NCBI RefSeq assembly: GCF_016907715.1
Contig: NZ_JAFBCM010000001.1
Span: 7,293,420-7,357,419 of the forward strand
Origin: Tenggerimyces flavus
Lineage (GTDB): Bacteria > Actinomycetota > Actinomycetes > Propionibacteriales > Actinopolymorphaceae
Direction: 5' to 3'
Length of the DNA stretch: 64,000 nt
Positions 5,812 through 63,722 of this stretch are shown piece after piece. How positions within the stretch are numbered: the first letter of the stretch is position 1; every line of letters begins with the position of its first letter. Under the pieces are notes generated by a model. The model ran no database searches. It worked only from the letters and a program-made list of their open reading frames with translations, and was not told the DNA's origin. Made by a program: the position numbers and the translations under genes.

Positions 5812-5927
5812 GGACCTCCCTCGTTGATGTGATCGTCTGTCTCCTCCGATGGCTAGCGTTCATCCGATGACGAGCGCAGGGGCCCGGAGGTCATGTATCC
5901 AGGGGCATCGCGGACGGACGGGGGTTG

Positions 5928-7193: not shown

Positions 7194-7210
7194 GGATCGG
7201 GTCCGTTGGT

Positions 7211-7645: not shown

Positions 7646-7781
7646 GAATCCTCCTTCGCTACGTTTCAAACTGTCCGACCAAGCGGCCGAACATCGTCTG
7701 GTCTCGTCCTCCGATGCCGCGATTTCGTAGGCATCGACTCCTTTCTCACCGCTCGTTCGCCTTGGGCCGCATCGTTGGGCC

Positions 7782-11671: not shown

Positions 11672-11680
11672 CAAGCACCT

Positions 11681-15282: not shown

Positions 15283-15459
15283 GGCTCCTCCTTGGATCGC
15301 CGGACCTCGCACTGGATCCCGTTGGGCTGTGGGCTTTCCCGCGCACATCGTGGCTACGCAAGCAGAGGCGAAACGACATGTCATCGTCATGAGTCCGCCG
15401 CACGATCGGAACCTTCATGACGATCGGGATCCGTTCCGTGCCCATCTGCACCCCCGCGG

Positions 15460-15484
15460 GATTCATCCCCGGCATTGCGGGTAC
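15460..15484 (+). promoter_or_regulatory. Candidate SigB-type stress promoter
   Basis: GATT, then 15 bases, then GGGTAC, about 45 bases before the stress-protein start. This fits the actinobacterial SigB-like pattern GNNT-N14-16-GGGTAY. Seen by eye only. Confidence 0.4.
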
Positions 15485-15529
15485 GGCGCCGATCACGACC
15501 TCATTGATCCCCGAAACAAGGAGATACCG

Positions 15530-16117
15530 ATGTTTGCACGACGCAGTCAGCTGGTCGTCGATCTTCCCGCGAATGGGATGGTGGTGGGTTCCTACAGCAC
15601 CTATGTCGAAGCACAGCGGGCGGTTGACTTCCTGTCGGATCAGAAGTTTCCGGTCGAACACACCAGCATCATCGGTAACGGACTTCGGCAGGTAGAGGAG
15701 ATCACCGGCAGGATGACCTGGCCTCGCGCCTTGGGCGCCGGACTCGCCAGCGGAGCATGGTTCGGCTTGTTCGTCGGCCTTTTGCTCGGCCTGTTCGCCC
15801 CCGTCGGCGCGAACTGGCTGGCGACGGTGCTCACCGGCCTCATCCTCGGTGCGCTGTTCGGCATGGTGTTCGGTGCGGTCGGATACGCCCAAGTTGGTGG
15901 CCGGCGCGATTTCACCTCTCGATCGGCGATCGTCGCCACCAGTTATGACGTCTGGTGCGACCTGAGCCATGCCGAGGAGGCGACCAACCAACTCGCCCAA
16001 CTGGCACTTCGTGGCGACGTCATTCCACGCGCCAGGGCGGTCGCCAGGACCACCACCGGCCCGCACAACACTTCCCACGATGTCCGCCATGAGGATCCAC
16101 CCGGACTTCCGGTGTGA
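15530..16117 (+). CDS. General stress protein 17M-like membrane protein
   Basis: A 195-residue protein. The N-terminal domain (VVGSYSTYVEAQRAVDFLSD, then FPVEHTSIIGNGL) is the general stress protein 17M/YflT-like domain. Two glycine-rich membrane helices follow (about 70-120: ASGAWFGLFVGLLLGLFAPV and GLILGALFGMVFGAVGYAQV), then a short cytosolic tail. The ATG has AAGGAG 7 bases upstream. It is divergent from the peptide-importer operon, and the preceding SigB-like promoter candidate fits a general stress role. Molecular function is unknown. Confidence 0.85.
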   Translation: MFARRSQLVVDLPANGMVVGSYSTYVEAQRAVDFLSDQKFPVEHTSIIGNGLRQVEEITGRMTWPRALGAGLASGAWFGLFVGLLLGLFAPVGANWLATVLTGLILGALFGMVFGAVGYAQVGGRRDFTSRSAIVATSYDVWCDLSHAEEATNQLAQLALRGDVIPRARAVARTTTGPHNTSHDVRHEDPPGLPV

Positions 16118-16206
16118 GGCATGGCGACTGCCAAGAAGCCATCTGGGGACGCAGAACCTTCATCTCGTCGTCATCAGACCGTCAAGCACCCGGCGAGGTT
16201 CGGTGA

Positions 16207-16231
16207 GTTTCTGCACGCTGGCATAGGGAAT
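16207..16231 (+). promoter_or_regulatory. Candidate SigB-type stress promoter
   Basis: GTTT, then 15 bases, then GGGAAT, about 60 bases before the SDR start. The -10 box deviates at one position from GGGTAY. Seen by eye only. Confidence 0.3.
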
Positions 16232-16290
16232 TGGCTCAGTCGGTTCGAACGTCAACTCTGCACCAAGTCGCTTGGATGGAGGTCGTAGCC

Positions 16291-17328
16291 GTGGTTGTGC
16301 GATCCGTTAATAGTTCAGTCGTTGTTGTGTTGGGCGCGAGCGCTGGAATTGGGAGGGCCGTGGTTAGGGAGTTCGCGTCCCGCGGCGCGGCCCTGGGCAT
16401 TGTGGCCCGCGGCCGGGCGGGATTGGAGGGGGCGCGTCGTGACGCGCTGCAGCTTGGCGCCAGCAAGGTGGTCGCCGTCGAAGCCGACATCGCCGACCAC
16501 GAGCAGGTGGCGGCCGCGGCGAGCCAGTTCGAGAACGAGCTCGGCCCGTTCGACGTGTGGGTCAACAACGCGATGGTGTCTGTGTTCGCTCGAGTCTGGG
16601 ACATCCCGCCGGAGGAGTTCCGGCGCGTGACGGAGACGAACTATCTGGGCTACGTGTACGGAACTCTGGAGGCGTTGCGGCGTATGCGGCCTCGCCAGCA
16701 CGGCACGATCGTGCAGGTGGGTTCGGCGCTGGCGTACCGGGGTATCCCGCTGCAGTCGGCGTACTGCGCGTCGAAGCACGCGATCCAGGGGTTCATGGAC
16801 TCGCTGCGCTCGGAGCTGCTGGCCGAGGGCAGTGATGTCCGGGTCACGATGGTGCAGATGCCGGCGGTGAACACTCCACAGTTCGGTTGGGTCCGGACGC
16901 GGCTGCCGCGCCATCCGCAGCCGGTGCCGCCGATCTTCCAGCCCGAGGTCGCCGCTCGCGCGGTGGTGTGGGCCGCCGATCACGGGCCTCGCGAGCTGAA
17001 CGTGGGGTGGCCCACGGTCAAGGCGCGGATCGGTAACCGGTTCGCCCCTGGTCTGCTGGATCACTACCTTGCCCGCTACGGGATCGATGGTCAGCAGACC
17101 AGTGAACCGATCGATCGTGAGGCCTGGACGGACAACCTCGACGCGCCCGCCGACGACACCGACGATCGTGGCGCACATGGCGTCTTCGACGATCGCGCCC
17201 GGTCCCGCAGTACGCAGCTCTGGTTGGCGACCCACAAAAGTCAGCTCGTGTACGGGGTGCTCGCCGCCGGTCTCACCGCGGCTGCCGCCGGGCTGGCCCT
17301 ACGTAACGGCAACGCCAACGGCACCTAG
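16291..17328 (+). CDS. SDR family oxidoreductase with C-terminal membrane anchor
   Basis: A 345-residue short-chain dehydrogenase. The Rossmann motif VVLGASAGIGRAVV is near the N-terminus, NNAMVS replaces the usual NNAG, and the catalytic pair sits in YCASKHA. The C-terminus ends with a hydrophobic helix (LVYGVLAAGLTAAAAGLAL), suggesting tail anchoring to the membrane with the catalytic domain in the cytosol. NAD(P)(H)-dependent; substrate unknown. GTG at 16291 is preferred because GGAGG lies 8 bases before it; an ATG 15 bases upstream is possible. Actinobacterial homologs of this architecture often sit with stress genes. Confidence 0.88.
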   Translation: MVVRSVNSSVVVVLGASAGIGRAVVREFASRGAALGIVARGRAGLEGARRDALQLGASKVVAVEADIADHEQVAAAASQFENELGPFDVWVNNAMVSVFARVWDIPPEEFRRVTETNYLGYVYGTLEALRRMRPRQHGTIVQVGSALAYRGIPLQSAYCASKHAIQGFMDSLRSELLAEGSDVRVTMVQMPAVNTPQFGWVRTRLPRHPQPVPPIFQPEVAARAVVWAADHGPRELNVGWPTVKARIGNRFAPGLLDHYLARYGIDGQQTSEPIDREAWTDNLDAPADDTDDRGAHGVFDDRARSRSTQLWLATHKSQLVYGVLAAGLTAAAAGLALRNGNANGT

Positions 17329-17384
17329 CAGGCGAGGCGAGACGTGAGGCATAACGTGAGGTGCGAGACGCGAGGCGAGAGCTG

Positions 17385-17969
17385 ATGACCTCTGCCATCC
17401 CGCCCTACGGCGCCGTTCCTCCCGGTTGGGCGGCCAACCCATCATCATGGCGTCAACGTCTGCCGATCGTCGCGTTGGCGATGGTCGGGTTCGCGATCGC
17501 GAGTTACCTGACGGCCTACCAGTACGGACTGGTCGGCGACGTGTGGGAACCGTTCTTCGGGGACGGAAGCCGCACCGTCCTGGACTCCTCGCTGTCGCGG
17601 GTGCTGCCGGTATCCGACGCCGCTCTCGGCGCCGCCGCCTACCTTCTCGACGCCGTCAGCGGCGTCTTCGGGGGCCGTGCCCGGTGGCGGACGATGCCTT
17701 GGATCGTCATCGTCTTCGGGATCGCGGTCGGTCCGCTCGGTGCGGTCAGCATCCTGCTAGTGATCGCCCAGCCTGTCCTCTACGGCGCCTACTGCACGTT
17801 GTGCCTTGCCTCGGCCGCGGTCTCCCTGGCTATGATCGCGCCCGCAGTCGACGAGGTACTGGCCAGCCTGCAGTATCTGCGCGGCGTCCACGCTCGCGGC
17901 GAGTCAACCTGGCGGGCGTTCTGGGGAACGCGGTCCGCCAGGCCGAGCCACACGATGAGCCAGACCTGA
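17385..17969 (+). CDS. Vitamin K epoxide reductase-like membrane protein
   Basis: A 194-residue protein with four or five membrane helices and the VKOR-like active-site motif CTLC (in GAYCTLCLASAAVSL, about residue 138). Bacterial VKOR homologs reoxidise thiol oxidoreductases for extracytoplasmic disulfide formation. The expected second cysteine pair in the first periplasmic loop is absent: that loop reads DVWEPFFGDGSRTVLDSSLS without Cys. Electron relay must therefore differ or be lost. The ATG is preceded by GAGGCGAGAG. Next gene is SPW-like, then an HtrA protease, so an envelope protein-quality cluster is plausible. Confidence 0.75.
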   Translation: MTSAIPPYGAVPPGWAANPSSWRQRLPIVALAMVGFAIASYLTAYQYGLVGDVWEPFFGDGSRTVLDSSLSRVLPVSDAALGAAAYLLDAVSGVFGGRARWRTMPWIVIVFGIAVGPLGAVSILLVIAQPVLYGAYCTLCLASAAVSLAMIAPAVDEVLASLQYLRGVHARGESTWRAFWGTRSARPSHTMSQT

Positions 17970-18008
17970 CAACCGACTGCTGACAACCGACGGGAGTGGA
18001 CCCCTGAG

Positions 18009-18404
18009 ATGTGGCGCAACGTCGTTGTAAGCGTGGTGGTACCAGCCATCGGTGTTGAGCTGATGGCGGCACCGTCTCTGCTTGGCTTCGCCTTCGACCG
18101 TGCCACGGACTTCGGCGGTGCCGCGGACAGCTTCCGTACGGTGGGACCGATCATCGTGGCGGCCGGATTCCTCTCCGCGTTCAGAATCACCCGTGCTCTG
18201 CGGTGGTTCAATCTCGTTCCGGGACTCTGGCTCCTGGCAGCGCCGTGGCTGCTGCCCCACCCAGGGGACGCGGTGGTCAACGGCCTTGTCGCGGGCGTCG
18301 CGGTCGTCCTGCTTACGGCGTCGGGCCGTCGCGCGGATCTGAGCCGCTACGGCGGCGGCTGGAAAGCCATCCCGCGGCGTTCGCAGGAAGGAGCCGTTGA
18401 ATGA
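18009..18404 (+). CDS. SPW-repeat-like integral membrane protein
   Basis: A 131-residue protein with four predicted helices. The repeat-like motif LRWFNLVPGLWLLAAPWLLP resembles SPW repeat proteins of actinobacteria, in which a Trp-containing helix is followed by APWLL. The tail (GGGWKAIPRRSQEGAVE) is cytosolic. Function unknown. It follows the VKOR-like gene by 39 bases. Confidence 0.65.
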   Translation: MWRNVVVSVVVPAIGVELMAAPSLLGFAFDRATDFGGAADSFRTVGPIIVAAGFLSAFRITRALRWFNLVPGLWLLAAPWLLPHPGDAVVNGLVAGVAVVLLTASGRRADLSRYGGGWKAIPRRSQEGAVE

Positions 18405-18527
18405 CGACGCAGTCAGGAGCGGCGCGTATCTCGCCAGTATGGGAGAGGAATCCGGTCATCGATGCGGCCGGCGCCAGGGATAGCCGCGCAGACAAGTCGA
18501 CGCGGGTTGACGCAGAGGTGGTGGCAG

Positions 18528-19631
18528 GTGAGGCGACGGACGATCAGGACCTCTGACCAGGTCCAATCCAGTGGCATGACGGCCGCGAGCGTCATGCTCG
18601 GCGTCATGCTCGGAGTGCTCGGGTGGACGGCGGGATGCACCGATGAGCCCGGCGGGCCTGTGGAGAAGCCGACCCCCTCGCCATCGATGCACGGAACCAG
18701 CGCGGACCCGGACGGCGACACCAGCGGAGGAGGGTTGTTCGGTCGGCTGCCGGAGCTGGTGGCCCGGGTGGAGCCGTCGGTAGTGACGGTGTTCGCCGGG
18801 GAAGGGTTGGGCAGTGGCGTGGTCTACAACGACGCCGGCGTGGTGGTCACCAACGCCCACGTCGTACGCGACGCGAGAAAGGTGGAACTGGGCCTGGCCG
18901 ACGGCACTCGGACCCCTGGAACCGTCTTAGCCACCGACGAACCGACCGACCTGGCAGTGATCCAGGCCGATCGCCGGGACTTGCCCGCGGCATCCTTCGC
19001 CGCCACGCTGCCTCCTCGCGGTGAACTCGTGGTGGCGATCGGCAGCCCGCTCGGCTTCGAGAACAGCGTCACCGCCGGCATCGTCTCCGGCCTTGGCCGC
19101 AACATTCCCGGCGCCGCACAAGGCGCGCCCGCGCTTGTCGACCTGATCCAAACCGACGCCGCCATCTCCCCCGGCAACTCCGGCGGTGCCCTCCTCAATA
19201 CCGAGGGCAAGATCGTGGGGATCAACGACGCCTACATTCCCCCAGCCGCCGGCGCCGTCTCGCTGGGTTTCGCCATCCCCGCCCCCACTGTCACCGACAC
19301 CGTCGACGAACTCCTCGCCGACGGCACCGCACAGCACGCCTACCTAGGCGTCGCCGCCGGCCCACTGACACCGCAGGTTGTCGAAGCGCTCGCCCTGGAC
19401 GTCGACGCCGGCGCCATCGTCATGGACGTCGCGAAGAACAGCCCCGCCGCCACCGCAGGAATGCGCACCGGCGACGTCATCACCGCTGTCGCCGACACCA
19501 AAGTCGACTCCGTCGGTGGCCTCCTCGGCGCACTTCGTGACTTCGACCCCGGAGACACCGCGACCATGCACGTCCACCGCGGCGGCGACACCCGCCAACT
19601 GAAGGTCACCTTCGGGGAGCTCCCCACATGA
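18528..19631 (+). CDS. HtrA/DegP-like trypsin-fold serine protease with PDZ domain, lipoprotein
   Basis: A 367-residue extracytoplasmic protease. Signal region: Arg-rich start, hydrophobic segment, lipobox ending GWTAGC, so probably a lipoprotein; a disordered linker follows. The catalytic triad is visible as NAHVV (His), TDLAV (Asp) and GNSGGAL (Ser). The PDZ domain (about 275-360) includes AYLGVAAG and NSPAATAGMRTGDVI. The GTG at 18528 is preferred because it gives a basic n-region and follows AGAGGTGG; an ATG at 18576 is a weaker alternative. Role: degradation or chaperoning of misfolded envelope proteins. It overlaps the next gene by an ATGA junction. Confidence 0.9.
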   Translation: MRRRTIRTSDQVQSSGMTAASVMLGVMLGVLGWTAGCTDEPGGPVEKPTPSPSMHGTSADPDGDTSGGGLFGRLPELVARVEPSVVTVFAGEGLGSGVVYNDAGVVVTNAHVVRDARKVELGLADGTRTPGTVLATDEPTDLAVIQADRRDLPAASFAATLPPRGELVVAIGSPLGFENSVTAGIVSGLGRNIPGAAQGAPALVDLIQTDAAISPGNSGGALLNTEGKIVGINDAYIPPAAGAVSLGFAIPAPTVTDTVDELLADGTAQHAYLGVAAGPLTPQVVEALALDVDAGAIVMDVAKNSPAATAGMRTGDVITAVADTKVDSVGGLLGALRDFDPGDTATMHVHRGGDTRQLKVTFGELPT

Positions 19632-20347
19632 CTGGTCCCACCCGCCGCACATATCTGCGGAACCTGACGAACAGGCAGCGCCGCCATACCGTCAGCCACG
19701 AACGAGACCACGAACAACGCCCGGAGCGCGATGACTCAAGAGCGTCGGATCATGGTCCATCACAGGTTGACGAAACCACGGATATCAGGCCAGGAGCGCC
19801 CGCCGCAGTGACGGTAGATCCCCGACGGAGCACGTCTCGTCCCGCAGCTCTCGTCGGCCTGTTCTTCTTGGTCGCAGTGATGGCTGCCACGCTGCCGTTC
19901 CTTGGCAAATGTGGGCCGTCGGTTCCGACGTCGGCGGTGGAGTACGGCACCGGACAAGGCATCGCGCGCAACACCGGCGAACTGGCACTGCGGAACATCG
20001 TCGCTGTCTCCGGCCGCGACGGACACGGCACCCTGCTCACCACCATCCTCAACGAAGGCACCTCCGACGACGCCCTCACCGGCGTCACTATGGTCGGCGG
20101 ACAGGTCGAGCTCACACCGAAACCCCTGCCGCTGGCCTCCCGGGAGGCGGCCAACCTCGGAGTCGCCACCACCCTGGGTCGAACACCAGCCACAGCCACA
20201 CTCCGCGGCGAGCCAGTGCGGGCCGGCTTCGTCGTCGACGTCACCTTCACCTTCACTCGCGCCGCTCCCATCACCGTTCCGGTCCTCGTCGTCGAACACG
20301 AACGCGCCTACGCCGACGTCCCCATCCCAGGATCTTCACCGACATGA
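19628..20347 (+). CDS. PCu(A)C-like secreted/membrane-anchored protein
   Basis: A 239-residue protein: basic N-terminal region of about 75 residues, one membrane segment (ALVGLFFLVAVMAATLPFLG), then an extracytoplasmic beta domain resembling the PCu(A)C/LpqE copper-chaperone fold (LALRNIVAVSGRDGHGTLLT, then FVVDVTFTFTRAAPITVPVL). The Met and His copper ligands of true PCu(A)C proteins are not visible, so copper binding is doubtful. The ATG overlaps the HtrA stop, indicating translational coupling. Likely a structural or accessory partner of the protease, which is inference. Confidence 0.68.
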   Translation: MTGPTRRTYLRNLTNRQRRHTVSHERDHEQRPERDDSRASDHGPSQVDETTDIRPGAPAAVTVDPRRSTSRPAALVGLFFLVAVMAATLPFLGKCGPSVPTSAVEYGTGQGIARNTGELALRNIVAVSGRDGHGTLLTTILNEGTSDDALTGVTMVGGQVELTPKPLPLASREAANLGVATTLGRTPATATLRGEPVRAGFVVDVTFTFTRAAPITVPVLVVEHERAYADVPIPGSSPT

Positions 20348-49849: not shown

Positions 49850-50575
49850 TTGACCTCGGAACAGCTGCCTCGCAGCCGACGAGCGCGGATCCTCGCGCTC
49901 GTCGGCGCCACCCTCGCGCTTCTGGGCGTGGCCGCCGTCGTGTTCGCGCTGGTCGGCCAGCAACCCGATCCGCCCGCGGTGAACGAGACCCAAACGCTGC
50001 CCACGCCGCCGAAGCAGTCGGCCGCGCCGTCGCCCTCCGCTTCCTCCGCACCGCCGCAGGCGTCCCGCTCGCCTTCGCCCGCGGCGCGTCCGACGCCTGA
50101 GCTCGAGCTCGCCAGGTCCGAGCCGAGGCGCGTACGCATCCCCCGACTCGACGTCTCCTCGACATTGGAACACCTCGAGCTCGACAACGACGGCGTGATG
50201 GAAACGCCCAAGGACCCGGCCAAGGCGGGCTGGTTCACCCCGTCGCCCACTCCCGGCGTCGTGGGGTCGGCGATCCTCGCGGGCCACATCACCTGGGACC
50301 GACGTCCGGCCGTGTTCTTCCAGCTGTCCACCCTGCACAAGGGTGACCGCATCGAGGTGGACCGAGCAGACCGTACGACCGCGGTGTTCAAGGTCGAACG
50401 GGTGGCCACGTTCCCGAAGAACGACTTCCCCAGCAAAGACGTCTACGCCGGAGCCGGCCACGCGGGCCTCCGCCTGATCACCTGCGGCGGCGACTACGAC
50501 TCCGCACGACGGTCCTACAAGGACAACACCATCGTCTGGGCGCGACTGGTCTCAAGCACACCTACACAGACCTAG
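49850..50575 (+). CDS. Class F sortase
   Basis: A 241-residue membrane-bound transpeptidase: one N-terminal helix ([20 protein letters not shown]), a Pro/Ser-rich linker, then the sortase barrel (about 95-235) with the active-site His in ILAGHITWD and Cys in [11 protein letters not shown]; the catalytic Arg is probably in [10 protein letters not shown]. Start is TTG with AGGA upstream, 14 bases after the CHRD stop. It would cleave a sorting signal and attach the protein to the envelope, here presumably the CHRD protein. Confidence 0.9.
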
Positions 50576-51558: not shown

Positions 51559-52149
51559 GTGGACGACTCCCAGCGCAGGAGGGATGATGCGCCCGACCTG
51601 GGTGCGCGGTTGCAGGACCTCGTCGTCGATGTAGCAATGGGTGACGCCGTCGCGTTCGAACGGCTCTACGCCATCGTAGTCACGCCGGTGACCGAAACCA
51701 TCCGAGCTCTGGTGCCCGACCCTGACCAGATCGACGACATCGCCCAGGAAGTCGCACTACGCATCTGGCGTGAAGCTGACCGCTACGACCCCAGCCGCGG
51801 AAGCGTCCTGTCCTGGGTTCGGGTGATCGCGCACCACCGCAGCGTCGACCACATCCGCGCCAGGCAGCTCCGTTCCACGAGAGAGGCATCCGCATCCGGG
51901 CGCGAGCCCCGATCCGCACCCGACCCCCTCGAGCAGGTACAGACCAACCTCGAGCACGCCGCCGTACGGACCGCTGTCGCGAACCTCTCGCCCACGCACC
52001 AGAAGGCCATCGTCGCGGCCTACTACCATGGACACACGTACCGTCAAGTAGCCGTCATCCTGGACATCCCCGAAGGTACGGCCAAAGCACGCCTGCGCGA
52101 CAGCCTGGCCCGCATCCGCCTCTACCTCAAGGCGCATCACGGTCTCTGA
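51559..52149 (+). CDS. ECF sigma factor (SigK-like)
   Basis: A 196-residue sigma-70 family protein. Region 2: FERLYAIVVTPVTETIRALV, then DDIAQEVALRIWREADRYDP and WVRVIAHHRSVDHIRARQ. Region 4: AVANLSPTHQKAIVAAYYHG, then YRQVAVILDIPEGTAKARLR. Closest in pattern to the SigK/ECF19 group. The usual anti-sigma gene directly downstream is missing; the next gene is convergent. Start GTG at 51559 is without a strong ribosome binding site. Confidence 0.9.
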   Translation: MDDSQRRRDDAPDLGARLQDLVVDVAMGDAVAFERLYAIVVTPVTETIRALVPDPDQIDDIAQEVALRIWREADRYDPSRGSVLSWVRVIAHHRSVDHIRARQLRSTREASASGREPRSAPDPLEQVQTNLEHAAVRTAVANLSPTHQKAIVAAYYHGHTYRQVAVILDIPEGTAKARLRDSLARIRLYLKAHHGL

Positions 52150-52243: not shown

Positions 52244-54040
52244 CTACCTGTCGACGTCACTACCTGACGCCGTTCGAGCAGGCCTCGAGATGTCCACCTG
52301 TTGCGGATCCCAGTAGTCATAGAGGGCGGCGTACGACGTGGACGAGCGAAGGAGTTCCTGGTGTCGACCGATGGCAGTCCGAGGTCCGTCGAGGAGTAGG
52401 ACGCGAGCGGCTCGCAGAGCGGAGCTCATGCGATGCGCGATGATGATCAAGCTGCCTCCCCTCGCTGCGAACGCCTGCTCGACGTGCGCTTCGGTCGCCG
52501 GATCGAGATGACAGGTCGCCTCGTCGAGGATGATCAGAGGCGACGGGCTTGCGTACGCGCGGGCCAGGGCGACGAGCTGCCGCTCGCCGGTGCTGAGGTT
52601 CGTCGTGTGTGGTGCTACGAGGGAGTCCCATCCGCCCGTTCGATCGAGTAAGGGATGAAGATGCAGATCGTCTGCTACCTCAGTCAGATGGGCTTGGGAC
52701 AGATCGGGATTCAGGTAGAGGACATTCTCTCGGAGCGTGCCGGAGAACAGGTATGCCTCTTGAGGAATGAGCGTGATCGTCCGTCGCAGGAGCTGGGGAT
52801 CCCACCTGGCCAGGTCCAGCCCGCCGAGGCGGATCGTGCCTTGTGTGGGTGGAAGCAGGCCGGCGAGGAGATCGGCGAGGGTGGACTTGCCGGCGCCGCT
52901 GGGTCCCACCACGGCTAGATGGTCTTGTTCGTTGATCTGGAGTTCGAGCTGGTCGATGACCGCGGCTGCGCGCGGTCCGTAGCTGAAGCCGAGCCTTCGA
53001 ACAGTGAGGTTCCGTCCACGTGGACGTAGCGGATGGGGCGCCGAATGATCCAGCTGCGGACGGCGAGAAGGATCAGGAACGTTCAATGCAGTCGCGAGGC
53101 GCGAGACGACCACCGCGAGCTGCAGACCCCAGTTGCCGCCGATCTGGATCAGCGCTCGCAAAGCCGGCTGCACCGTGACGGTCAGATAGGCCGCAGCCGC
53201 CAAGAGCTCGCCGGCGCCGACGCGGCCCGCTCCCAGAAGCCACGGTGCGGCAGCGAGTATTGCCAGCAGCGGGAGATGAACGCCGAGCGCGATAAGAACG
53301 ATGCGGTTGGAGGACATCGAGGCGAGCCTTCGACTGGCCGTCAGCTGAGTGTCGATGACGTCGCCAGCTTCGGCGACCGCGCGGTCCACGGCCTGGCAGG
53401 CACGAACGTCCCGGACCCCGTGCAGGAGCCTGGTGACATGGCCTGCGACGCCCTCCTCCGCCACCACAACCGCACGTTGCCGACCGGCCAGCCTTGGCAG
53501 CAGCAGGCCGAAGAGCACGAGCGACAACACAACAGGCGGCAGGACAACGACGAGAAGCATCGGGTCAAGTACCGCGACACCGCCCAGGGCCGCCAGGACC
53601 GAGAACGCGAACTGGCGAGCTGTGCGCAGCAGGCCGGAGGTCAACTTCCGTACGGCCTCGATCTGACCGGTCAGGCGAGTCACCGCCGCAGGATCCCCGC
53701 CAGCGGATCGATGTCCCGGGGCTTGCAGAGTCGCGGTGACAAGTCGGAGGACAAGGTCATCGCGCAGCGGTTCGATGATGGCTGCGAGTCGCGGCAAGAC
53801 CATCGCCGACGCGCCGGTGGCGAGAAGCATCACCACGAGGAGTGCCGCCAACCACCCCAGGCCCAGCACCGGTCGCCCGGCGAGGAACCCTTGCTCGAGA
53901 GCCAGGGCGAGCAGTTTGCCGGTCGCGAGCGTAGGCAGGGCTTCAACGGCAGACCACAAGGCGAGGTCACGAAGGACCTTGGGGTGTGCACGCAACCCTG
54001 CAAGGACGAGACCAAATCCGGTGATCCTTTCACGCCCCAT
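52244..54040 (-). CDS. ABC exporter half-transporter of the lanthipeptide cluster (2)
   Basis: A 598-residue protein with an N-terminal six-helix export domain and a C-terminal ATPase: Walker A GPSGAGKSTL, signature LSTGERQLVALARA and Walker B LIILDEATCHLDP with a proper catalytic Glu. There is no peptidase (C39) domain. The ATG at 54040 overlaps the stop of the first half-transporter (TGATG), so the two likely form a heterodimer that exports the modified peptide. Confidence 0.92.
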   Translation of the reverse strand: MGRERITGFGLVLAGLRAHPKVLRDLALWSAVEALPTLATGKLLALALEQGFLAGRPVLGLGWLAALLVVMLLATGASAMVLPRLAAIIEPLRDDLVLRLVTATLQAPGHRSAGGDPAAVTRLTGQIEAVRKLTSGLLRTARQFAFSVLAALGGVAVLDPMLLVVVLPPVVLSLVLFGLLLPRLAGRQRAVVVAEEGVAGHVTRLLHGVRDVRACQAVDRAVAEAGDVIDTQLTASRRLASMSSNRIVLIALGVHLPLLAILAAAPWLLGAGRVGAGELLAAAAYLTVTVQPALRALIQIGGNWGLQLAVVVSRLATALNVPDPSRRPQLDHSAPHPLRPRGRNLTVRRLGFSYGPRAAAVIDQLELQINEQDHLAVVGPSGAGKSTLADLLAGLLPPTQGTIRLGGLDLARWDPQLLRRTITLIPQEAYLFSGTLRENVLYLNPDLSQAHLTEVADDLHLHPLLDRTGGWDSLVAPHTTNLSTGERQLVALARAYASPSPLIILDEATCHLDPATEAHVEQAFAARGGSLIIIAHRMSSALRAARVLLLDGPRTAIGRHQELLRSSTSYAALYDYWDPQQVDISRPARTASGSDVDR

Positions 54041-55827
54041 CAGCGCGTCCGGTCTTCCGCGAGATCGTCGGCGGCCGGGGAGAACAGCGTGCGGTAAGAC
54101 GGATCGCGCCACAGCCGAGCGTGGGTGTCGACCCTGAGGAGGCGTCCGCCGACGAACCAGGCGACTCGGTCGGCGCGAGCGGCCGTCGCGGCTCGGTGGG
54201 CCACGACGAGCTTCGTTCTGCCCGACAGGGCATCTGACAGCGCCTCGACCACATTGGCTTCGGTGGCGGTGTCGAGGCTCGAGGTCGCGTCGTCGAGAAC
54301 CAGCACCCGCGCGCCCTGGGCGACAGCTCGCGCAAGGCCAAGGCGCTGCTGTTCGCCGCCGGACAGCGGCGCGTCCACGACGGGTGTGTGATAGCCCAAG
54401 GGAAGGCGGCGGATGAACTCGTCTGCGTGTGCCGCTGTCGCGGCGAGAAGGACATCCATGCCACGATCCATGTTCTGTGTACGTGGCGACTCGAGCACGG
54501 CGGGGACAGCTGGGCGCGCGTAGGCGATGGCGTCGGCAACCGTCTGACCGAGGAGGACGGGGCGCTCGAACCCGTACGCGACCGCCTGACGCAGTTGGGT
54601 CGTCGTGAGCTCGGCGATATCGTGCCCGTCGATCAACACCCGACCCGCGTCAGGCTCGACCATGCGCCCGAGCAGGCCGGTAAGAGCGGACTTCCCGGAG
54701 CCGCTGGGGCCGACGATGGCCACTGTGCTCCCGGCGGCTACCCGCAGCGAGACTTGGTCGAGAACGGTAACTCCTGCCCGCCGGACGCTCACGTCGTCGA
54801 ACCGGATCTCTCCGACGCCCGAGGGCAGCAGTTCCTCGCCCTCCGCGGGCCGTATCGGACGGACGAAGTCGACTACCCGTGCCGCGCCGGCGCGGATCCC
54901 CGCTAAGTCGACGACGATGTCGATCTTGTCGACGGTTCCGAGAGCTAGAGCGGCATACCCAACAGCCGCGATGAGTTGACCCGGCGAGATCCGCCCAACC
55001 GCCAGCGCCCAGCCGGCGGCGCCGATGACGGCGACGTGGAGAGCGGGCGTCAACAGGCCGAACGACACGGCAAGCCCGCGCTGGAGTTCCCACGAGCGGA
55101 GACCTGCCGCACGCAGCTCAGGAAGCGGGGAGAGAATTCTCGCGACCTCTTGGTCGACGGTGCCGCTCGCGCGGATCGTCCGCAGCCCGGCGAGGGCGTC
55201 GACCAGACGATCCGCGATTCTGCCCTGCGCCTCCTGATACGCCGTCGAGGCGTCGGTGGATCGTCTGGTGAAAGGGCGTAGGACGGCATAGCCGATTGGT
55301 GCCCCGACGAGCAGGACCAGCGGGAGGAGTGGGTCGATAGTGCCGAGTAGGGCCAACGCGGCGATCGCCGTCAGCACAGTCCGGACCGCCGACGAGACTA
55401 AAGGGATGATGCGACCGCATGCACTTCCGCCGGCGATGATCCGTGACGCGACCTCACCTGCGCCAAGCTCGGGAGCTCCCGACCGGGCGTCGAGCGCGGA
55501 CACGACCATGCGCCGCCGCACCCATGCGCTGGCGCCTGTCGCGCCTGTCGTGTTCGCGCGTTGCGCCAGCACGTCAGCGATGACGGCCAGGGTCACCATC
55601 CCAGTCGCCAATCCAGCGGCCACAGGAAGGCTCGTTGGGTCACTCAGCGCCGCATCAAGGGCTCGGCCGACAGCTGTGGGAAGACCGAGAGTGCCAGCTG
55701 ACGCGACAACACCTGCCGTCACGGCGGCGACGGTCCAACCGCGTTGGCTTCGCAGCACGGTACTAAGAAGCCGATCCGACCCTTTCTGGCCTCGCGGGTC
55801 GGGTCGAGAGCGCCTCTGCCCAACCAT
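54040..55827 (-). CDS. ABC exporter half-transporter of the lanthipeptide cluster (1)
   Basis: A 595-residue half-transporter: six membrane helices, then an ATPase with Walker A GPSGSGKSAL, signature LSGGEQQRLGLARA and Walker B LVLDDATSSLDT. The usual catalytic Glu after Walker B is Asp, a mark of the degenerate site in heterodimeric exporters; the partner has the Glu. No C39 peptidase domain, so leader removal must be done elsewhere. Begins 189 bases after the precursor gene, with hairpins between. Confidence 0.92.
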   Translation of the reverse strand: MVGQRRSRPDPRGQKGSDRLLSTVLRSQRGWTVAAVTAGVVASAGTLGLPTAVGRALDAALSDPTSLPVAAGLATGMVTLAVIADVLAQRANTTGATGASAWVRRRMVVSALDARSGAPELGAGEVASRIIAGGSACGRIIPLVSSAVRTVLTAIAALALLGTIDPLLPLVLLVGAPIGYAVLRPFTRRSTDASTAYQEAQGRIADRLVDALAGLRTIRASGTVDQEVARILSPLPELRAAGLRSWELQRGLAVSFGLLTPALHVAVIGAAGWALAVGRISPGQLIAAVGYAALALGTVDKIDIVVDLAGIRAGAARVVDFVRPIRPAEGEELLPSGVGEIRFDDVSVRRAGVTVLDQVSLRVAAGSTVAIVGPSGSGKSALTGLLGRMVEPDAGRVLIDGHDIAELTTTQLRQAVAYGFERPVLLGQTVADAIAYARPAVPAVLESPRTQNMDRGMDVLLAATAAHADEFIRRLPLGYHTPVVDAPLSGGEQQRLGLARAVAQGARVLVLDDATSSLDTATEANVVEALSDALSGRTKLVVAHRAATAARADRVAWFVGGRLLRVDTHARLWRDPSYRTLFSPAADDLAEDRTR

Positions 55828-55860
55828 TTGCGCGAACTCTCTGCTCGGAGCCGACAGGAT

Positions 55861-55916
55861 CCCTACTCTTTGAGTAGGGCAGTGGAGGCAGCCGGGCCAG
55901 CTAGCCGAACGCCTCC
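55861..55916. terminator. Tandem hairpins between precursor and exporter genes
   Basis: CCCTACTC-TTT-GAGTAGGG forms a perfect 8-bp stem with a 3-base loop. Adjacent GTGGAGGC and GCCTCCAC form a second 8-bp stem. On the minus-strand transcript they lie after the precursor and before the exporters, so they may act as partial terminators or stabilisers that keep precursor mRNA abundant. Confidence 0.55.
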
Positions 55917-55987
55917 ACCGCTACCGGGGTCGACCTTGATCGCTCGGCGCTCCAACGCCGAACTGCGCGGTCAGGTCGACCCCCACC

Positions 55988-56003
55988 TCGAAAGACGAGG
56001 CTG
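55988..56003. terminator. Short hairpin just after precursor stop
   Basis: CCTCG-AAAGA-CGAGG, a 5-bp stem beginning about 14 bases after the precursor stop on the minus strand. Confidence 0.4.
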
Positions 56004-56016
56004 GTAGCTCAACGGC

Positions 56017-56175
56017 CTACCAGCAGTCGTCGCCGCCGTTGTCGACGGTGAATCCGCAGGTGACGACACAGGTGATCAGCTCGCAGCCGCCACCGTCGCC
56101 ATCGCCCAGCAGTCCGAGGTCGGCCGTGCTGGCCTCGGGAAGCAGCTCGAGAGCCGCAACGCTACGCATAGTCAT
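56017..56175 (-). CDS. Lanthipeptide precursor peptide (LanA)
   Basis: A 52-residue peptide with a very strong ribosome binding site (GGGAGGAGGGA) before the ATG at 56175. The leader (about 1-25) has the hydrophobic/acidic motif VAALELLPEAS followed by a Gly/Asp-rich hinge GDGDGGG. The core is CELITCVVTCGFTVDNGG and ends DDCW: four Cys, three Thr and no Ser. Class III and IV leaders have a similar LxLLxE helix. The gene sits between the peptidase and exporter genes on the same strand, and its first codons overlap the end of the peptidase gene. No second precursor was found nearby. Confidence 0.85.
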   Translation of the reverse strand: MTMRSVAALELLPEASTADLGLLGDGDGGGCELITCVVTCGFTVDNGGDDCW

Positions 56176-58003
56176 TGTTGTCCCTCCTCCCTGATGTGTT
56201 GATGCGGTCGCTGTGGCGGTTGCCACGGCGAAACCTTGGAGACATCACCTGCAGCTCGTCTCTCGGCTCGGCGGCAAGAAACGTAGATACGAGCGCGGCT
56301 GTCGACGGTCGCTCCAGGGGGTGATGTCCGGCACCGGGGACTTCACGGTAGTCAGGAGCCCTTCCGCCGGCGCGTAGCCGATCCACCAGCTGCCGCGAGT
56401 GGGTCACGGGGACGATGGGGTCCTCGGCACCGTGCACGATCAACAGCCGCGCTCGGATCAGGTCGGCTACCGCCAGGACGTCCCGCGGCCCGGACTCATC
56501 GACGAAGACAGACGCCCCGCCGAACCGGTCGACGATCGCGCGTGCTTGGCGGCCGCCGTCGGAACGCAGCCGAGAACCCGACAGGAACGGCGCGACCACG
56601 GCGCCGCGGTCCCAGAGCGCCGGTTTGGCAGCCAGAGCGAGCAGGCCAAGGAACGCGCCGTAGCTGGCACCGAACAAAGCCACGGGCCGGCCACGCCGGC
56701 CAACGATCGCAGCGGCGACGGTAAGCACGTCGACAAGGTCTGTCCCACCCCAGGCTCCGTGAATCTCCGCAGACTCTCTGACTGGATAACCGCGGCTGCC
56801 CCTGGGATTGACGCCAACGACTGCGACTCCGCTGTCGACCAAGTCGGGGAACGGCCCTCTTCCGGTCAGCCGCCAGGCAGCATCCGGTCCGCCGTGAAGG
56901 GCGATCACCACATCTCGAGCGTTACGCCAGTTCCCGTAGCAGACTGCCTCGACGACCCCGCCGCTTGGACGATCGAAGTGTTCCGCTGTCGGCGCGCCAT
57001 CGGGTGTGGACGACACGGATGCGGTCCGCGGTCCCGGCAGCAGCCTCATGGAGGCGGCCGCGAAATCGTTCGCCGGGTCGTTCGGCATCAGCTCAGCGAT
57101 AGAGGCGGAGGCACCCGGCGACCCGAACGGGAACCGAATCGCGGTGCTCGACCAGTGCGCGACCCCGCCCACCACCCCATCCGGAAGGGAGAGCTCGGTC
57201 CGGGTTACACCCTCGGTATCGATGATCGCTAGGCCGGCTCGGGCGCCGTTCTCGACGCGGAGAAGGAGTCCCTGGCCGGCCGGATCGACTGCGAGTGGCA
57301 TCTGTGCTCTCTCGCTCCGCAGCTCAGGCAGCCAGCGGGATTCCCCACTCCGGTCGAGAGGCAGCAGACCCCACCGATTGTCTCTGTCTTCCACCACGAC
57401 GTAGCCGCCCGTCGCCGAGACCAGCCGCAGGCGCAGATCCGATCGGTCGGGCCACAGTGGCTCGTGAGTCCCAGTAACCAGGTCGATGGCGTGGATGGTG
57501 AGACCCTCTGCGGTAAGTAGTTCCACAGCGAGGCGTTTCCCACCCTCGTCTGACCAACCGGTGCGCCCCACCAACCCGGGCAGGGTGATCCGAGGGCGCG
57601 CCAGCTCCGCAGCGCTCGGGACCGTTATGAGATCGGTCTGGCGCCTTCCGTCCGTGGACAGCACGAGTGCGGAAGCGGTGGGCGAACCGATCAGCCGCAC
57701 ACCGGCAGCGCGGAGACGAAGCACCTCGAGAGGCGGCAGCGGAGGCTCCATCAGCAGGATCGCGTGATCGTCGCCGTCGAGCAGGCGCACGAGAACCTTG
57801 CCGTCGCGAAGCGGGAGGACCTGGGCGTCCGGCCGGGTGATCTGCGGTGTGCCCGCCAGTTCTTCGACAACGAGAGGCTGAGCACCGCTCGTTCCGAAAC
57901 GCCACCGAACCACTCTCCGTGCCCGGGTCGCCGGATCGACCTGGAGGCAGCACGCGACCTGGCCATCTCCGGAGAATGCGAAACCGGTCCTCGTCAGGAC
58001 CAT
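56162..58003 (-). CDS. S9 family peptidase (prolyl oligopeptidase type)
   Basis: A 613-residue serine peptidase with an N-terminal beta-propeller-like region and a C-terminal alpha/beta hydrolase. Catalytic Ser in FGASYGAFLG, Asp in HGAEDPIVPV, His in GAGHHPLERP. No signal peptide. The ATG at 58003 overlaps the synthetase stop by 10 bases; a longer upstream frame is inside the synthetase gene. The stop lies inside the start of the precursor gene. Prolyl oligopeptidases such as FlaP remove leaders in class III lanthipeptide clusters, so leader processing here is a strong inference. The leader contains a Pro (LLPEAS) as a possible cleavage point. Confidence 0.9.
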   Translation of the reverse strand: MVLTRTGFAFSGDGQVACCLQVDPATRARRVVRWRFGTSGAQPLVVEELAGTPQITRPDAQVLPLRDGKVLVRLLDGDDHAILLMEPPLPPLEVLRLRAAGVRLIGSPTASALVLSTDGRRQTDLITVPSAAELARPRITLPGLVGRTGWSDEGGKRLAVELLTAEGLTIHAIDLVTGTHEPLWPDRSDLRLRLVSATGGYVVVEDRDNRWGLLPLDRSGESRWLPELRSERAQMPLAVDPAGQGLLLRVENGARAGLAIIDTEGVTRTELSLPDGVVGGVAHWSSTAIRFPFGSPGASASIAELMPNDPANDFAAASMRLLPGPRTASVSSTPDGAPTAEHFDRPSGGVVEAVCYGNWRNARDVVIALHGGPDAAWRLTGRGPFPDLVDSGVAVVGVNPRGSRGYPVRESAEIHGAWGGTDLVDVLTVAAAIVGRRGRPVALFGASYGAFLGLLALAAKPALWDRGAVVAPFLSGSRLRSDGGRQARAIVDRFGGASVFVDESGPRDVLAVADLIRARLLIVHGAEDPIVPVTHSRQLVDRLRAGGRAPDYREVPGAGHHPLERPSTAALVSTFLAAEPRDELQVMSPRFRRGNRHSDRINTSGRRDNNDYA

Positions 58004-60804
58004 GACGCCACCCGGGTCATGAGCGCATCGTCGAGGAGGAACGAACGCGTCCCTCCCATGTGCAGCCGGATCAGGAAGTTCACGACGCCCGCGAGACCGA
58101 CTCCGGCATCGAAGGTGACGTCCCTGCCGGTCTCGTCCGGTACGAGGTACCGCCCGTCCCGCAGAGCAGCGCGGACCGCCATCGGCGGGACGAACGTGGC
58201 AGCGACGTCTCGATAGTTGGAGTCGCCGGTGAATTCCGCGGCGTCCAGGAGGAGCTCGCCGTGTCCGGCCAGCCCATGACATGCCGACGGTAAAGACGCC
58301 CAACGAGTCCTTTGTACCGCGAAAGTCGCGCCGACGGCGCCGGCCACGGCTTGTTCGTCACCGGTAACCGCGGCGAGGCGAAACAGGAACGTTCCCACGC
58401 CCGCCGCACCGCTGCACCAATGCGGCAGCAGGCCGGCCTCGCGAGGCCCGACGGGCCACCACGCCGATCCGTCGTTCTCGCGAATTGCGACGTTAGCCAT
58501 GGTGAGGCCCGCCTGCGAGGCCCACATCAGGTAGTCCGGCCGATTCAGGGCGCCTGCAGCCGTGAGAAGGAACGTTCCTATGCCCGCGACGCCGTGGGCG
58601 AAGCCGTAGTGCACGGTCCCGGCGAGCCGGGAACCTGCTCCCGCGGAGATCGGCCACATAACCCCGCGCGGGGTCTCCTCGGCAGCGTCGACCACAGCGT
58701 CGGCGTACTGCGCCGCTCGGGCAAGCAGAGAGCTGTCACCCGTCAACCGGGCGAGGTACAAGTGGGCCAGCCCGGCGCCGGCAAGACCATGAGTGACGTC
58801 TGGGTTGCCCCACGCCGTTGGCAGCGAATGGGCGATCGAAACGGCTCGGTCGATCCATGCCTGTTCGCCAAAGAGAACTCCAGCGTGAGCAAGCGTCCAT
58901 GCCGTTCCAGCCCGACCGAAATACAGCCCTGGGAGAGGTGGCCGTTCCGGCAGGCGGCGGGGATCCAAATTGGCCAACCAGGCGGCGGCTTCCCTTGCTA
59001 CGTCCACCAGGTTCGCTGGCCCGATTCGTTGCTCGTAAGCACGAAGAAGGACGTCGAGAACGCCGGCGGCGCCGTGCTGGACGTTGCCCGGGTCGGTCTG
59101 GTCGCCGAACGCTCCGGTTGGCCAGGCCCGACCGCCATCCGGTGCGAAGCTATCCACCAGCTGGGCCAAGCCGTCGTCGAGCAGGCGTCGACTCGACGGC
59201 AGCACCGCGGGATCGCTGTTCCCGTGCTCGAGGGTCGAGAGCTCTCCGATCCGGCTCGTCTGCGGGCGGTCCTGGGCACGTTCCGCGAGAAGAGCGACCA
59301 CCAGTGCGGAGTCCAAGTGCGTTTGTTGGTCTCTGGGCGATTCCGCGAACTGGGTGCTCATCCAAGCTTCGAGGCGTTGCTGTGTCGTGCGCGTTCTCGG
59401 TCTGTCCGCGGCCAGAAGAGGATCCGACCCGGTCGAGATGAGGAACAGCAGAGCGCCGAGGCTGAACAAGTCCTCGGTCGGGTCCGCGCGCACCAACGGC
59501 CCACCGCCCCGAACCTCGGGAGCCTGATACGCCACTGTCCCGCTCGCACGCACCAAGTCGCCGATCGGAGCGGCATGCTCCAGGTCGACCAAGTGCAGCT
59601 TGCCGTCATCGGCGACTATCACATTCGTCGGGCTCAGATCGCGGATCACGTACCCGGCGTCGTGGACGGCTTCGACGAGCCGGCACAGCTGCCCACTCAT
59701 CGCCTCCAATGCGGGCTCCGCCTCACCACCGGGGTCGCCCGACGAACTGGTGCCGCCACCGATCCGATGCCTCCATGATCGAAGCGGAACGCCGGAGACC
59801 CGTTCCTCGATGAGGAACACGTCTCCCTCGGCTTCGAAGAGGTCCAAGACCCGAGGTATCGGGACGACATCGGCCAGCAGCCGAAGCGTGGCCGCTTCCT
59901 GGCGAAGTCGATCGCGTGCATCTCGGCCGTTCAGATCCGTCTCGGCAAAGGCTCGCGCCTGTTTGACCACTACAGACTGGCCCGTGACCAGATCTGTGCC
60001 AAGAAACACCCCACCGCGAGCGGAATGCCTAACTGCGTTCCGCATCTCGTACCGCTCGTTGAGAACGACAGCGACCCCCCGGCCGGCACCAGACTCGTGC
60101 GGTTCGATCGAAGGGAACGGGTCCGTTGTCCACGAGGGGGGCGTGAACGAGGCCTCCCTGCGATCTTCGACAACTGCCCCGTCCGGTCCAACGAGGACGT
60201 ACCTGAACACGCCGTCGTCATCGAGTCCTCCGTCGCCGGAGAAGCCTCCGTAGCGATAGTGCACCAGGCTTCCGGGTCGAACGGGTCGGTCGGACAGCAC
60301 CCGCGGCCCTCCCAGCCCAGCCGTGGCATCGTCGAGCTCGATCGCCAACGAGCGGAAATAGACCTCGTCCTCCGGGTAGACGGTAATGATCTTGCCGAAC
60401 TCAGCCCGCCCGCAGTCCCGGCCTGTCAGCCATGCCACACCGGACCTAGTCGCCGCGAACTTGAACACCACCGCATGTCGCGCCAGAACCGGAACGACCC
60501 TGGCAAGGAGGTCGTCCACGTTCGCCGGCGAGGCCGAGATATGAAGCTTCCATCCCTGTGCCGGCAGCTGAGGCGCGCTCCCTTGCCTTGCGGAACACCA
60601 CATACTGCTGCGCCGGAGTCGCCAATGTGAACCCGAACGCCCCGCTAGGAGGCGCTCAACGGCGGGTACGAGGTCATCCTTAGCTGATCTGTCAGAGGTA
60701 TCCGGGGCGTCCTTGAGGCGCGACTGCTGGTCTTGCGTCACGTCCCACCGCACCAGCTTCACTCCCTGAATCGACTCGAACCTCGCCGAAGCCTGTCCCC
60801 GCAT
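57994..60804 (-). CDS. Lanthionine synthetase, lyase-kinase-cyclase (LanL/LanKC type)
   Basis: A 936-residue three-domain enzyme that phosphorylates Ser/Thr of the precursor, eliminates phosphate and closes thioether rings. Lyase domain (about 80-225): GWKLHISA, FKFAATRSG, FGKIITVYPED and VHYRYGGFSG. Kinase domain (about 255-500): VVVKQARAF, VIRDLSPTNVIV and LHLVDLEHAAP. LanC-like cyclase (about 530-936): YGFAHGVAG, PHWCSGAAGVG and ACHGLAGHGELL, which supply the His and two Cys zinc ligands plus the adjacent His. Class III enzymes lack zinc ligands, so this is closer to class IV (LanL). First gene of the cluster; ATG 60804 with AGGTAG close upstream. Confidence 0.93.
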   Translation of the reverse strand: MRGQASARFESIQGVKLVRWDVTQDQQSRLKDAPDTSDRSAKDDLVPAVERLLAGRSGSHWRLRRSSMWCSARQGSAPQLPAQGWKLHISASPANVDDLLARVVPVLARHAVVFKFAATRSGVAWLTGRDCGRAEFGKIITVYPEDEVYFRSLAIELDDATAGLGGPRVLSDRPVRPGSLVHYRYGGFSGDGGLDDDGVFRYVLVGPDGAVVEDRREASFTPPSWTTDPFPSIEPHESGAGRGVAVVLNERYEMRNAVRHSARGGVFLGTDLVTGQSVVVKQARAFAETDLNGRDARDRLRQEAATLRLLADVVPIPRVLDLFEAEGDVFLIEERVSGVPLRSWRHRIGGGTSSSGDPGGEAEPALEAMSGQLCRLVEAVHDAGYVIRDLSPTNVIVADDGKLHLVDLEHAAPIGDLVRASGTVAYQAPEVRGGGPLVRADPTEDLFSLGALLFLISTGSDPLLAADRPRTRTTQQRLEAWMSTQFAESPRDQQTHLDSALVVALLAERAQDRPQTSRIGELSTLEHGNSDPAVLPSSRRLLDDGLAQLVDSFAPDGGRAWPTGAFGDQTDPGNVQHGAAGVLDVLLRAYEQRIGPANLVDVAREAAAWLANLDPRRLPERPPLPGLYFGRAGTAWTLAHAGVLFGEQAWIDRAVSIAHSLPTAWGNPDVTHGLAGAGLAHLYLARLTGDSSLLARAAQYADAVVDAAEETPRGVMWPISAGAGSRLAGTVHYGFAHGVAGIGTFLLTAAGALNRPDYLMWASQAGLTMANVAIRENDGSAWWPVGPREAGLLPHWCSGAAGVGTFLFRLAAVTGDEQAVAGAVGATFAVQRTRWASLPSACHGLAGHGELLLDAAEFTGDSNYRDVAATFVPPMAVRAALRDGRYLVPDETGRDVTFDAGVGLAGVVNFLIRLHMGGTRSFLLDDALMTRVASWS

Positions 60805-62971: not shown

Positions 62972-63420
62972 ATGGATGCAGCTGCCGTCTTAGAGCCTGT
63001 TCCTGAACCTGAGTTGATCTTGGCGGCGTCGTCGTCGAACAGTAGCTCGATTCGGAGATGCTCACGCCCACGGCCGCGAACGACTCTCTACCTGGACGCC
63101 GGGCAACTAGTCGTGCTGCTCGGTGACTCCGGCATCGGCAGGACCCACCTACTCATCGCGCGCGCCTGGCCGCCTGCGACCAAGGCCGCCACGTCCGCTA
63201 CGTCACCGGCGCGCAAATTAGCCATCGAACTCGTCGAAGCCGCCGACGACCGCATGCCGTCCTGCGTCGTTGCCCGCTACGGCCACCTCGACCTCTTGCT
63301 GCTCGATGAACTCGGCTACGTCCAAGTCGATCCTCGCGGGCCCGAGCTGTTGCTCCAGATCATCACCGAACGCGAGGAACGCGCCTCGATCGGCATCGTG
63401 GATCCACTCCGCGCGGGCCA
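62972..63420 (+). pseudogene. IstB-like ATPase remnant (second copy)
   Basis: Contains a degenerate Walker A (VVLLGDSGIGRTHLLIA, with Arg in place of the Walker Lys), LAIELVEAADDRMPS, YGHLDLLLLDELGYVQVDPR (Walker B) and IITEREERASIGIV, then breaks off before the C-terminal part. IstB serves IS21 transposition. No IstA or ends are visible. It differs from the 33.9 kb remnant, so two separate IS21-type elements have decayed here. Confidence 0.75.
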
Positions 63421-63540
63421 CATCGTTGAGGTTGACGTCAGGGTCCTCCTCCGGATACGGCCACAGTCCGCCGCCGCGGTTCCAGGCCGCCCACGTTGGT
63501 GCCGGGTCGAGCGTGGATTACCTCGGCCAGGAATGACGGC
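63380..63540 (-). pseudogene. Unidentified gene fragment
   Basis: On the minus strand one frame reads DPAPTWAAWNRGGGLWPYPE and continues DPDVNLNDVARAEWI. Composition is coding-like and it abuts the break point of the IstB remnant. Family not recognised. Confidence 0.35.
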
Positions 63541-63722
63541 TCGAGTTTATGTGCCACGCCTTCAGGATCAGTCGGAACGTGTGCGCCGATAGGAGTTGAT
63601 CGTCCGGATGCCGTCCGGATGCGGACAGCATCCGTAACAGGACGCGGCTGCAGTCGTTGGATCAGCGCGATTCACTCAGGGGAGGAGGGCGCGGTAGTCG
63701 CGGGTGTGCAAGGGAGGTAGCC

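Follow-up and report, generated by a model that had tools for sequence, protein, structure and literature searches.

Genes at the locus

The window, by which we mean the whole stretch of 64,000 nucleotides of Tenggerimyces flavus DNA that was analysed, contains five adjacent genes on the minus strand that are transcribed in the order lanL, S9 peptidase gene, lanA, ABC1 and ABC2. The original prediction had their place and order right, and the limits of the genes were refined. The genes are given below in window coordinates.

60804-57994, minus strand: lanL, class IV lanthionine synthetase, 936 amino acids (NCBIfam NF038150; Pfam PF25816, PF00069 and PF05147)
56162..58003, minus strand: S9 peptidase of a LanL-associated family, acylaminoacyl-peptidase-like, 613 amino acids (PF00326; predicted fold)
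56175-56017, minus strand: lanA, precursor with an ATG start, 52 amino acids (independent profile match; ribosome-site-like GGAGGAGGG directly upstream)
55827-54040, minus strand: ABC1, exporter half-transporter 1 (PF00005 and PF00664; motifs)
54040-52244, minus strand: ABC2, exporter half-transporter 2, ATG at 54040 (PF00005 and PF00664; motifs)

The S9 gene starts at the ATG at 58003 and not at the upstream TTG at 58303, and it therefore overlaps lanL by 10 bases. At its other end it overlaps lanA by 14 bases, which bears out the proposed overlap of the first three genes. The start codon of ABC2 shares one base with the end of ABC1. A small sigma-70-type factor, ECF-like by our reading (Pfam; 51559-52149, plus strand), adjoins the end of the cluster on the opposite strand, a sortase (Pfam; 49850-50575, plus strand) lies near that end, also on the opposite strand, and a minus-strand ORF with a DsbD_TM match (Pfam) is found among the flanking ORFs. 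These three were left out of the cluster. Five flanking ORFs, located either downstream of 52244 or upstream of 60804, were compared by phmmer with an ORF set of 89 sequences, and the window itself was the only source of relatives. Regarding a link with phages or proviruses, 76 stretches of viral contigs matched a pattern, and none of them encodes a LanL relative.

It could be argued that the cluster is a decayed remnant, as LanA is divergent and an IstB/IS21-like ATPase gene (62972-63592, plus strand) lies about 2.2 kb upstream of lanL. However, all five reading frames are open, the catalytic residues are intact and codon position 2 has the lowest GC content in each of the five genes, and we consider such decay highly improbable.

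Both ABC proteins carry a membrane and an ATPase domain (PF00664 and PF00005, respectively), and no C39 peptidase domain was present among the Pfam matches of either. ABC1 has the signature LSGGE and a degenerate Walker B motif, LDDA, and ABC2 has the degenerate signature LSTGE and the Walker B motif LDEA. These complementary changes in two half-transporters agree with the heterodimeric exporter that had been predicted, and the pattern fits a heterodimer with one weak ATP site. Two ABC genes are present in 36 of the S9-bearing loci; there, the Walker B motif of ABC1 was DDA in 20 cases and DEA in 3, with 13 cases lacking a match, and that of ABC2 was DEA in 34 and DDA in 2; the motifs were read by regular expressions, a few signature readings are spurious, and the duplicate L097 is kept in the count.

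The precursor LanA (MTMRSVAALELLPEASTADLGLLGDGDGGG-CELITCVVTCGFTVDNGGDDCW, where the hyphen is our guess at the start of the core) has 4 Cys in 52 amino acids and is therefore Cys-rich, as predicted. The leader carries the motif ALELLPE, and LanA shares with its relatives the pattern AL..LPE in the leader and a closely spaced series of C, TC, TC and T in the core. A leader profile was seeded with the window peptide and was used at E up to 1 for the precursor counts at loci; because it contains this seed, a profile of 11 Streptomycetaceae precursors, with the window peptide excluded, served as the independent test. It ranked LanA 16 of 7506 small ORFs (E 5e-4), and a second precursor of the same genome outscored LanA (E 1e-7). 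LanA did not match any of the NCBIfam precursor models, including the VenA family NF038147 and the ALQxL family NF038157, at E up to 10, and the second precursor reached 29.6 bits with NF038147, for which the cut-off is 35. By the independent profile, LanA is a precursor in the neighbourhood of the synthetase gene that has a class IV-type leader and a core with Ser/Thr plus Cys. If we guess that the core runs from about Cys31, it holds Thr35, Thr39 and Thr43 with Cys31, Cys36, Cys40 and Cys51, and the three Thr would allow three dehydrations. Cys31 is not preceded by a core Thr, and it may therefore be free, in a disulfide or part of a ring closed toward a later residue.

The synthetase and its class

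LanL has a lyase, a kinase and a LanC-like domain in one protein (PF25816, 181.3 bits; PF00069, 60.2 bits; PF05147, 114.8 bits). Its regions, in amino acids, are as follows.

About 56-235: RamC_N-type lyase
264-518: kinase
572-918: zinc LanC-like cyclase

LanL passed the NCBIfam class IV model NF038150 (907.5 bits, cut-off 650) and failed the class III LanKC model NF038151 (449.6 bits, cut-off 575). The motifs YGFAHG, WCSG and CHG, quoted in the original prediction, are all there, and the cyclase His and the three zinc ligands are His737, Cys797, Cys842 and His843. In an alignment of 88 LanL rows, two of which are duplicates, these positions are conserved in 87, 88, 88 and 87 rows, respectively, and 86 rows keep all four. 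The exceptions are L045, where Asn replaces the His of YGFAHG, and L019, where Cys replaces the His of CHG. For the 13 LanKC rows, the last His is present in none, the two Cys in 1 and 2 and the His of YGFAHG in 6. In a FastTree phylogeny of 86 LanL rows (L097 and L098 were omitted as they are the same loci as L031 and L064) and the 13 LanKC rows, the two classes lie on two sides of one branch, the support of which is only 36, with L102 and L113 as long rows. The phylogeny, one of the checks that had been proposed, places the window LanL on the LanL side, away from the LanKC rows. There, a starred group of five unites it with the second LanL of its own genome (51% identical) and with those of genomes from the same family. 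Because of the model scores, the zinc ligands and the side of the tree, the synthetase and its cluster can be assigned to class IV with near certainty.

The original prediction had proposed a new lanthipeptide, either of class IV or an intermediate between classes III and IV. Class IV was confirmed, and the intermediate was not. Peptidases of the broad S9 family do occur in class III clusters as well, with FlaP (PMC10885120) and NorP (PMC10206099) named in the accessible parts of these papers, and this speaks for an intermediate. The class III model failed and the class IV model passed, however, the zinc ligands are intact, LanL lies among the LanLs in the tree, and the window S9 protein is from a different subfamily than the FlaP-like enzyme described below. 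We therefore reject an intermediate, the probability of which is close to nil.

One LanL-like synthetase falls short of both models. This protein, L014/L102 (G025 C2 365995-368493), scored 575.6 against the cut-off of 650 for class IV and 356 against 575 for class III, and it has a very long branch.

The S9 peptidase family and its distribution

The S9 protein matches PF00326 with 57.8 bits (cut-off 22.6), and no PF02897 match was found in it with Pfam at E up to 1. As a control, the S9 protein encoded beside the LanKC of the same genome matches PF02897 with 229.7 bits (E 7e-68). We call this control enzyme FlaP-like; the label is our own, and the comparison was made with this enzyme and not with FlaP itself. 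The window S9 protein is 16% identical to it, and the two are in separate clades. An AlphaFold2 model based on 44 rows (pLDDT 86.6) has strands in residues 5-356 followed by a mixed helix/strand domain, and the structural matches of this model indicate an N-terminal beta-propeller and a C-terminal alpha/beta hydrolase. The closest fold is that of 8wt1, an S9 carboxypeptidase (550 residues aligned with Z 28.2 and rmsd 3.5, only about 17% identity), further fold matches include acylaminoacyl peptidases, and a sequence-profile search gave the acylaminoacyl peptidase 2qzp as best match (E 4e-40). The best profile and fold matches are thus the acylaminoacyl peptidase and S9 carboxypeptidase structures 2qzp, 1ve6 and 8wt1. 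The catalytic Ser, Asp and His and the HGGP motif are kept in 46 of the 47 rows of the S9 family, and the remaining row has a gap. In a FastTree phylogeny, a starred branch (99) separates 44 LanL-associated proteins from 14 other S9 proteins of the window's genome; long branches were noted in this tree, and L099, L060 and L097 were left out of the alignment and the tree because they are partial or duplicate.

The peptidase had been labelled as POP-type. It is indeed an S9 enzyme, but it is not a prolyl oligopeptidase of the FlaP type, which we rejected on the basis of the missing PF02897 domain, the 16% identity and the separate clade; it resembles acylaminoacyl peptidases and has a clade of its own. 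As this label was wrong, the argument for a mixture of class III and class IV features falls. S9 peptidases are moreover common beside LanL, and a review names them, in the part accessible to us, for the maturation of both class III and class IV peptides, including FlaP (PMC10885120).

The distribution of the S9 family was determined around the best 80 of 143 confirmed LanL relatives, chosen by similarity to the query (genome contig scan, LanL alignment), and the resulting fractions are therefore biased toward the LanL of the window. In 43 of these 80 loci, a gene of the same S9 family follows lanL on the same strand. The genome of the window has 31 PF00326 places in 8.52 Mb, which by our own arithmetic, ignoring strand, gives a chance of about 1.5% for finding one within a given 4 kb, compared with the 43 of 80 observed. 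The full order LanL-S9-LanA-ABC-ABC, for which a neighbourhood check had been suggested, is identical in 33 of the 80 loci. The other ten S9 loci have a precursor without ABC genes (5), neither (3), a precursor and a single ABC gene (1) or two ABC genes without a precursor call in place (1). In 39 of the 43 S9-bearing loci, the next gene after S9 is a precursor gene; these precursor counts were made with the permissive profile (E up to 1) that has the window peptide as one of its seeds. One further S9 gene lies beside LanL at a contig end (L084). No such S9 gene is nearby in 37 of the 80 loci, or 36 when L084 is counted, and the peptidase is therefore not needed for class IV as such. On the LanL tree the presence of S9 changes 13 times, compared to a shuffled mean of 33.3, so the trait is clustered on the tree but was gained or lost repeatedly. 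S9-bearing loci were found in Streptosporangiaceae, Streptomycetaceae, Pseudonocardiaceae, Micromonosporaceae, Thermomonosporaceae and Kribbellaceae. Many related bacteria have the same cluster layout. The original prediction had itself named membership of a known class, together with the same gene order in other clusters, as evidence against it, and this is what we found.

Among 147 genomes of the window's relatives, its own included, four have a LanL above the cut-off and one more has a LanL at E below 1e-150. The same genomes have three full-length matches to the S9 family (E up to 1e-60), each beside a LanL. The S9 family of the window was found in none of 12 LanKC loci from other genomes, and a FlaP-like S9 was found in 1 of them. 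By score, FlaP-like S9 proteins occur in 2 of 13 LanKC loci (L009 of the window's genome and L152) and in 1 of 84 LanL loci (L026, on the opposite strand).

In one genome from a genus of the same family (G005, locus L099), LanL, a propeller-only homologue of the S9 protein and LanA are encoded consecutively, with lepA on one side and an APH-like gene on the other. Five other genomes of this genus have a propeller-only gene between lepA and the APH-like gene, and no LanL was found in them, either in the fetched stretches or genome-wide at E up to 1e-150. The propeller-only relatives are the following.

L099, 10924-12540
L172, 7777-8868
L173, 7725-9311
L174, 8014-9600
L175, 8565-9638
L176, 8287-9600

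L172 has a further APH-like gene on the lepA side, and one stop was read within its longer match. The five genes without LanL show pairwise dN values of 0.028-0.18 and dS values of 0.15-0.72, and dN well below dS points to selection on them. The propeller may have a job for which no protease is needed. Since L099 combines LanL and a precursor with the propeller half only, proteolysis may not be the whole role of the S9 protein.

This leads to an alternative in which the propeller is the main part of the S9 protein, binding LanA or presenting it to LanL or the exporter, with proteolysis being secondary. The L099 arrangement and the propeller-only genes retained without LanL are in line with this. 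The conservation of the catalytic residues in the rows that have the hydrolase half argues against it, however. The propeller-only form, moreover, was found in a single genus and may be a relic that has acquired another use. We consider this alternative very unlikely. It is also conceivable, as a speculation to which we give a rather low probability, that classes III and IV recruited different S9 enzymes to remove their leaders, as the S9 lineage is near the acylaminoacyl peptidases and apart from the FlaP type, and that the propeller is a precursor-handling module able to work without the peptidase, as the propeller-only genes, both the one beside LanL and those retained without it, would suggest.

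Leader removal and related systems

What we observed, namely the order of the genes, their domains, their catalytic residues, the families to which they belong and their conserved synteny, fits a mechanism that we consider probable as a whole, with a class IV operon in which the S9 peptidase is the leader protease. LanL would bind LanA through the acidic leader (ALELLPE), its kinase domain would phosphorylate the core Thr residues, its lyase domain would eliminate the phosphate and its zinc cyclase would close the (methyl)lanthionine rings. If the core starts near Cys31, Thr 35, 39 and 43 and Cys 31, 36, 40 and 51 would be available for this. The S9 peptidase would then cut the leader, presumably in the cytosol; Pro13, which is conserved, and the Gly-rich stretch that precedes Cys31 are possible cut sites. 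An aminopeptidase encoded elsewhere may do some later trimming. ABC1 and ABC2, in which no C39 domain was seen, would form an asymmetric heterodimer and export the product, and removal of the leader before export is the likely role of the S9 protein. We infer the LanL chemistry from LanL homology, including ring formation, and the remainder, that is, cytosolic cleavage, the cut site, the order of the steps, export and any activity of the product, from synteny and domain content.

The Pro of the leader motif was considered as a candidate cut site. Counted by locus, it is present in 39 of 43 loci with S9 versus 13 of 20 without (Fisher p 0.028), and counted by peptide in 54 of 62 versus 17 of 24 (p 0.11). 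The count covers 86 loci, L097 and L098 having been dropped, and 21 of these had no precursor match and two with a match gave no motif. After kinship was allowed for, nothing was left of the association between Pro and S9 (sign test, median p 1).

An alternative is that the S9 protein is not the leader endoprotease. The leader would then be removed by a housekeeping protease, such as an AplP-like M1 enzyme encoded elsewhere in the genome, and the S9 protein would only trim, degrade failed products or protect the producer. According to the accessible part of PMC10885120, an AplP-like enzyme encoded outside the cluster processes SflA, which is a class IV peptide, and the genome of the window has 6 Peptidase_M1 places. 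In addition, the closest folds of the S9 protein carry the titles S9 carboxypeptidase, acylaminoacyl peptidase and puromycin hydrolase, and from our reading of the titles these include exopeptidases and a resistance enzyme. On the other hand, the synteny is tight, with a precursor after S9 in nearly all S9-bearing loci, and the S9 gene overlaps both of its neighbours, which fits a dedicated step. This makes the alternative unlikely, and leader removal by the S9 peptidase is the reading that we prefer.

The system is related to that of venezuelin (venL, venA, venT and venH), which likewise has a LanL with lyase, kinase and zinc cyclase, a small precursor and two transporter genes. As far as the accessible part of the paper describes it (PMC2843593), the ven cluster contains no protease gene, whereas the window has an S9 gene between lanL and lanA, and the ven transporter consists of separate ATP-binding and permease subunits, whereas both ABC genes of the window carry membrane and ATPase parts. 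The same text reports the demonstration of the LanL chemistry for VenL (PMC2843593). Closer in layout are clusters of Kitasatospora, Yinghuangia and Streptomyces (for example, L035, L054, L061, L072 and L085), in which the gene order, the S9 family and the leader are as in the window and the LanL is 41-44% identical to that of the window in the best segment. The core form GC..TC...TC..FT is a shared feature as well, but the core of the window has a longer acidic tail that ends in DDCW. The precursors of L061 and L035 pass the VenA-family cut-off of 35 with 46.6 and 45.3 bits, respectively, whereas LanA of the window misses this model. The class III system of FlaP and flavipeptin also has an S9 peptidase encoded beside the lanthipeptide synthetase. 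The FlaP-like enzyme of the window's genome, however, has the PF02897 S9A domain and lies beside LanKC, whereas the S9 protein of the window has no PF02897 and lies beside LanL.

The class is already known, and the proposal of an S9 protease is not new either. There are 815 reported class IV clusters, and classes III and IV were separated with custom models, according to the portion of PMC7268733 that was accessible. Leader removal in classes III and IV is barely understood because most characterised clusters contain no protease gene, as stated in the accessible text of PMC8960859. A class III cluster with an S9 peptidase, NorP, is described in what is accessible of PMC10206099. We recognised no description of the LanL-associated S9 group or of its separation from the FlaP type in the literature covered, which is partial and has most subscription papers outside it, and we do not claim its absence from print. 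Roughly every second LanL locus of the biased sample (43 of 80) encodes a member of the S9 family, which offers ready candidates for leader-removing enzymes. The built-in S9 peptidase is the most useful part of the cluster, and the window provides a compact five-gene set for testing leader removal by an S9 enzyme that differs from the FlaP-like one encoded elsewhere in this genome.

Some other loci are of interest as well. L009 of the window's genome (C1 4532000-4551999) contains a second class IV set, with LanL2 at 16677-19640, an S9 gene at 14920-16686 and a precursor. The class III part of this locus has LanKC at 9737-12448, the FlaP-like S9 at 7452-9545 and ABC ORFs at 5791-7911 and 4064-7009. 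About 2.5 kb, containing a response regulator gene and an MR_MLE gene, separates the class IV set from the class III LanKC. L026 has a second kinase-cyclase match (181 bits) on the minus strand near its LanL, with the FlaP-like S9 on the same strand as this match, and is possibly another neighbourhood of classes III and IV. Finally, the class IV clusters of L042, L051, L060 and L082 each have an array of four to six different precursors.
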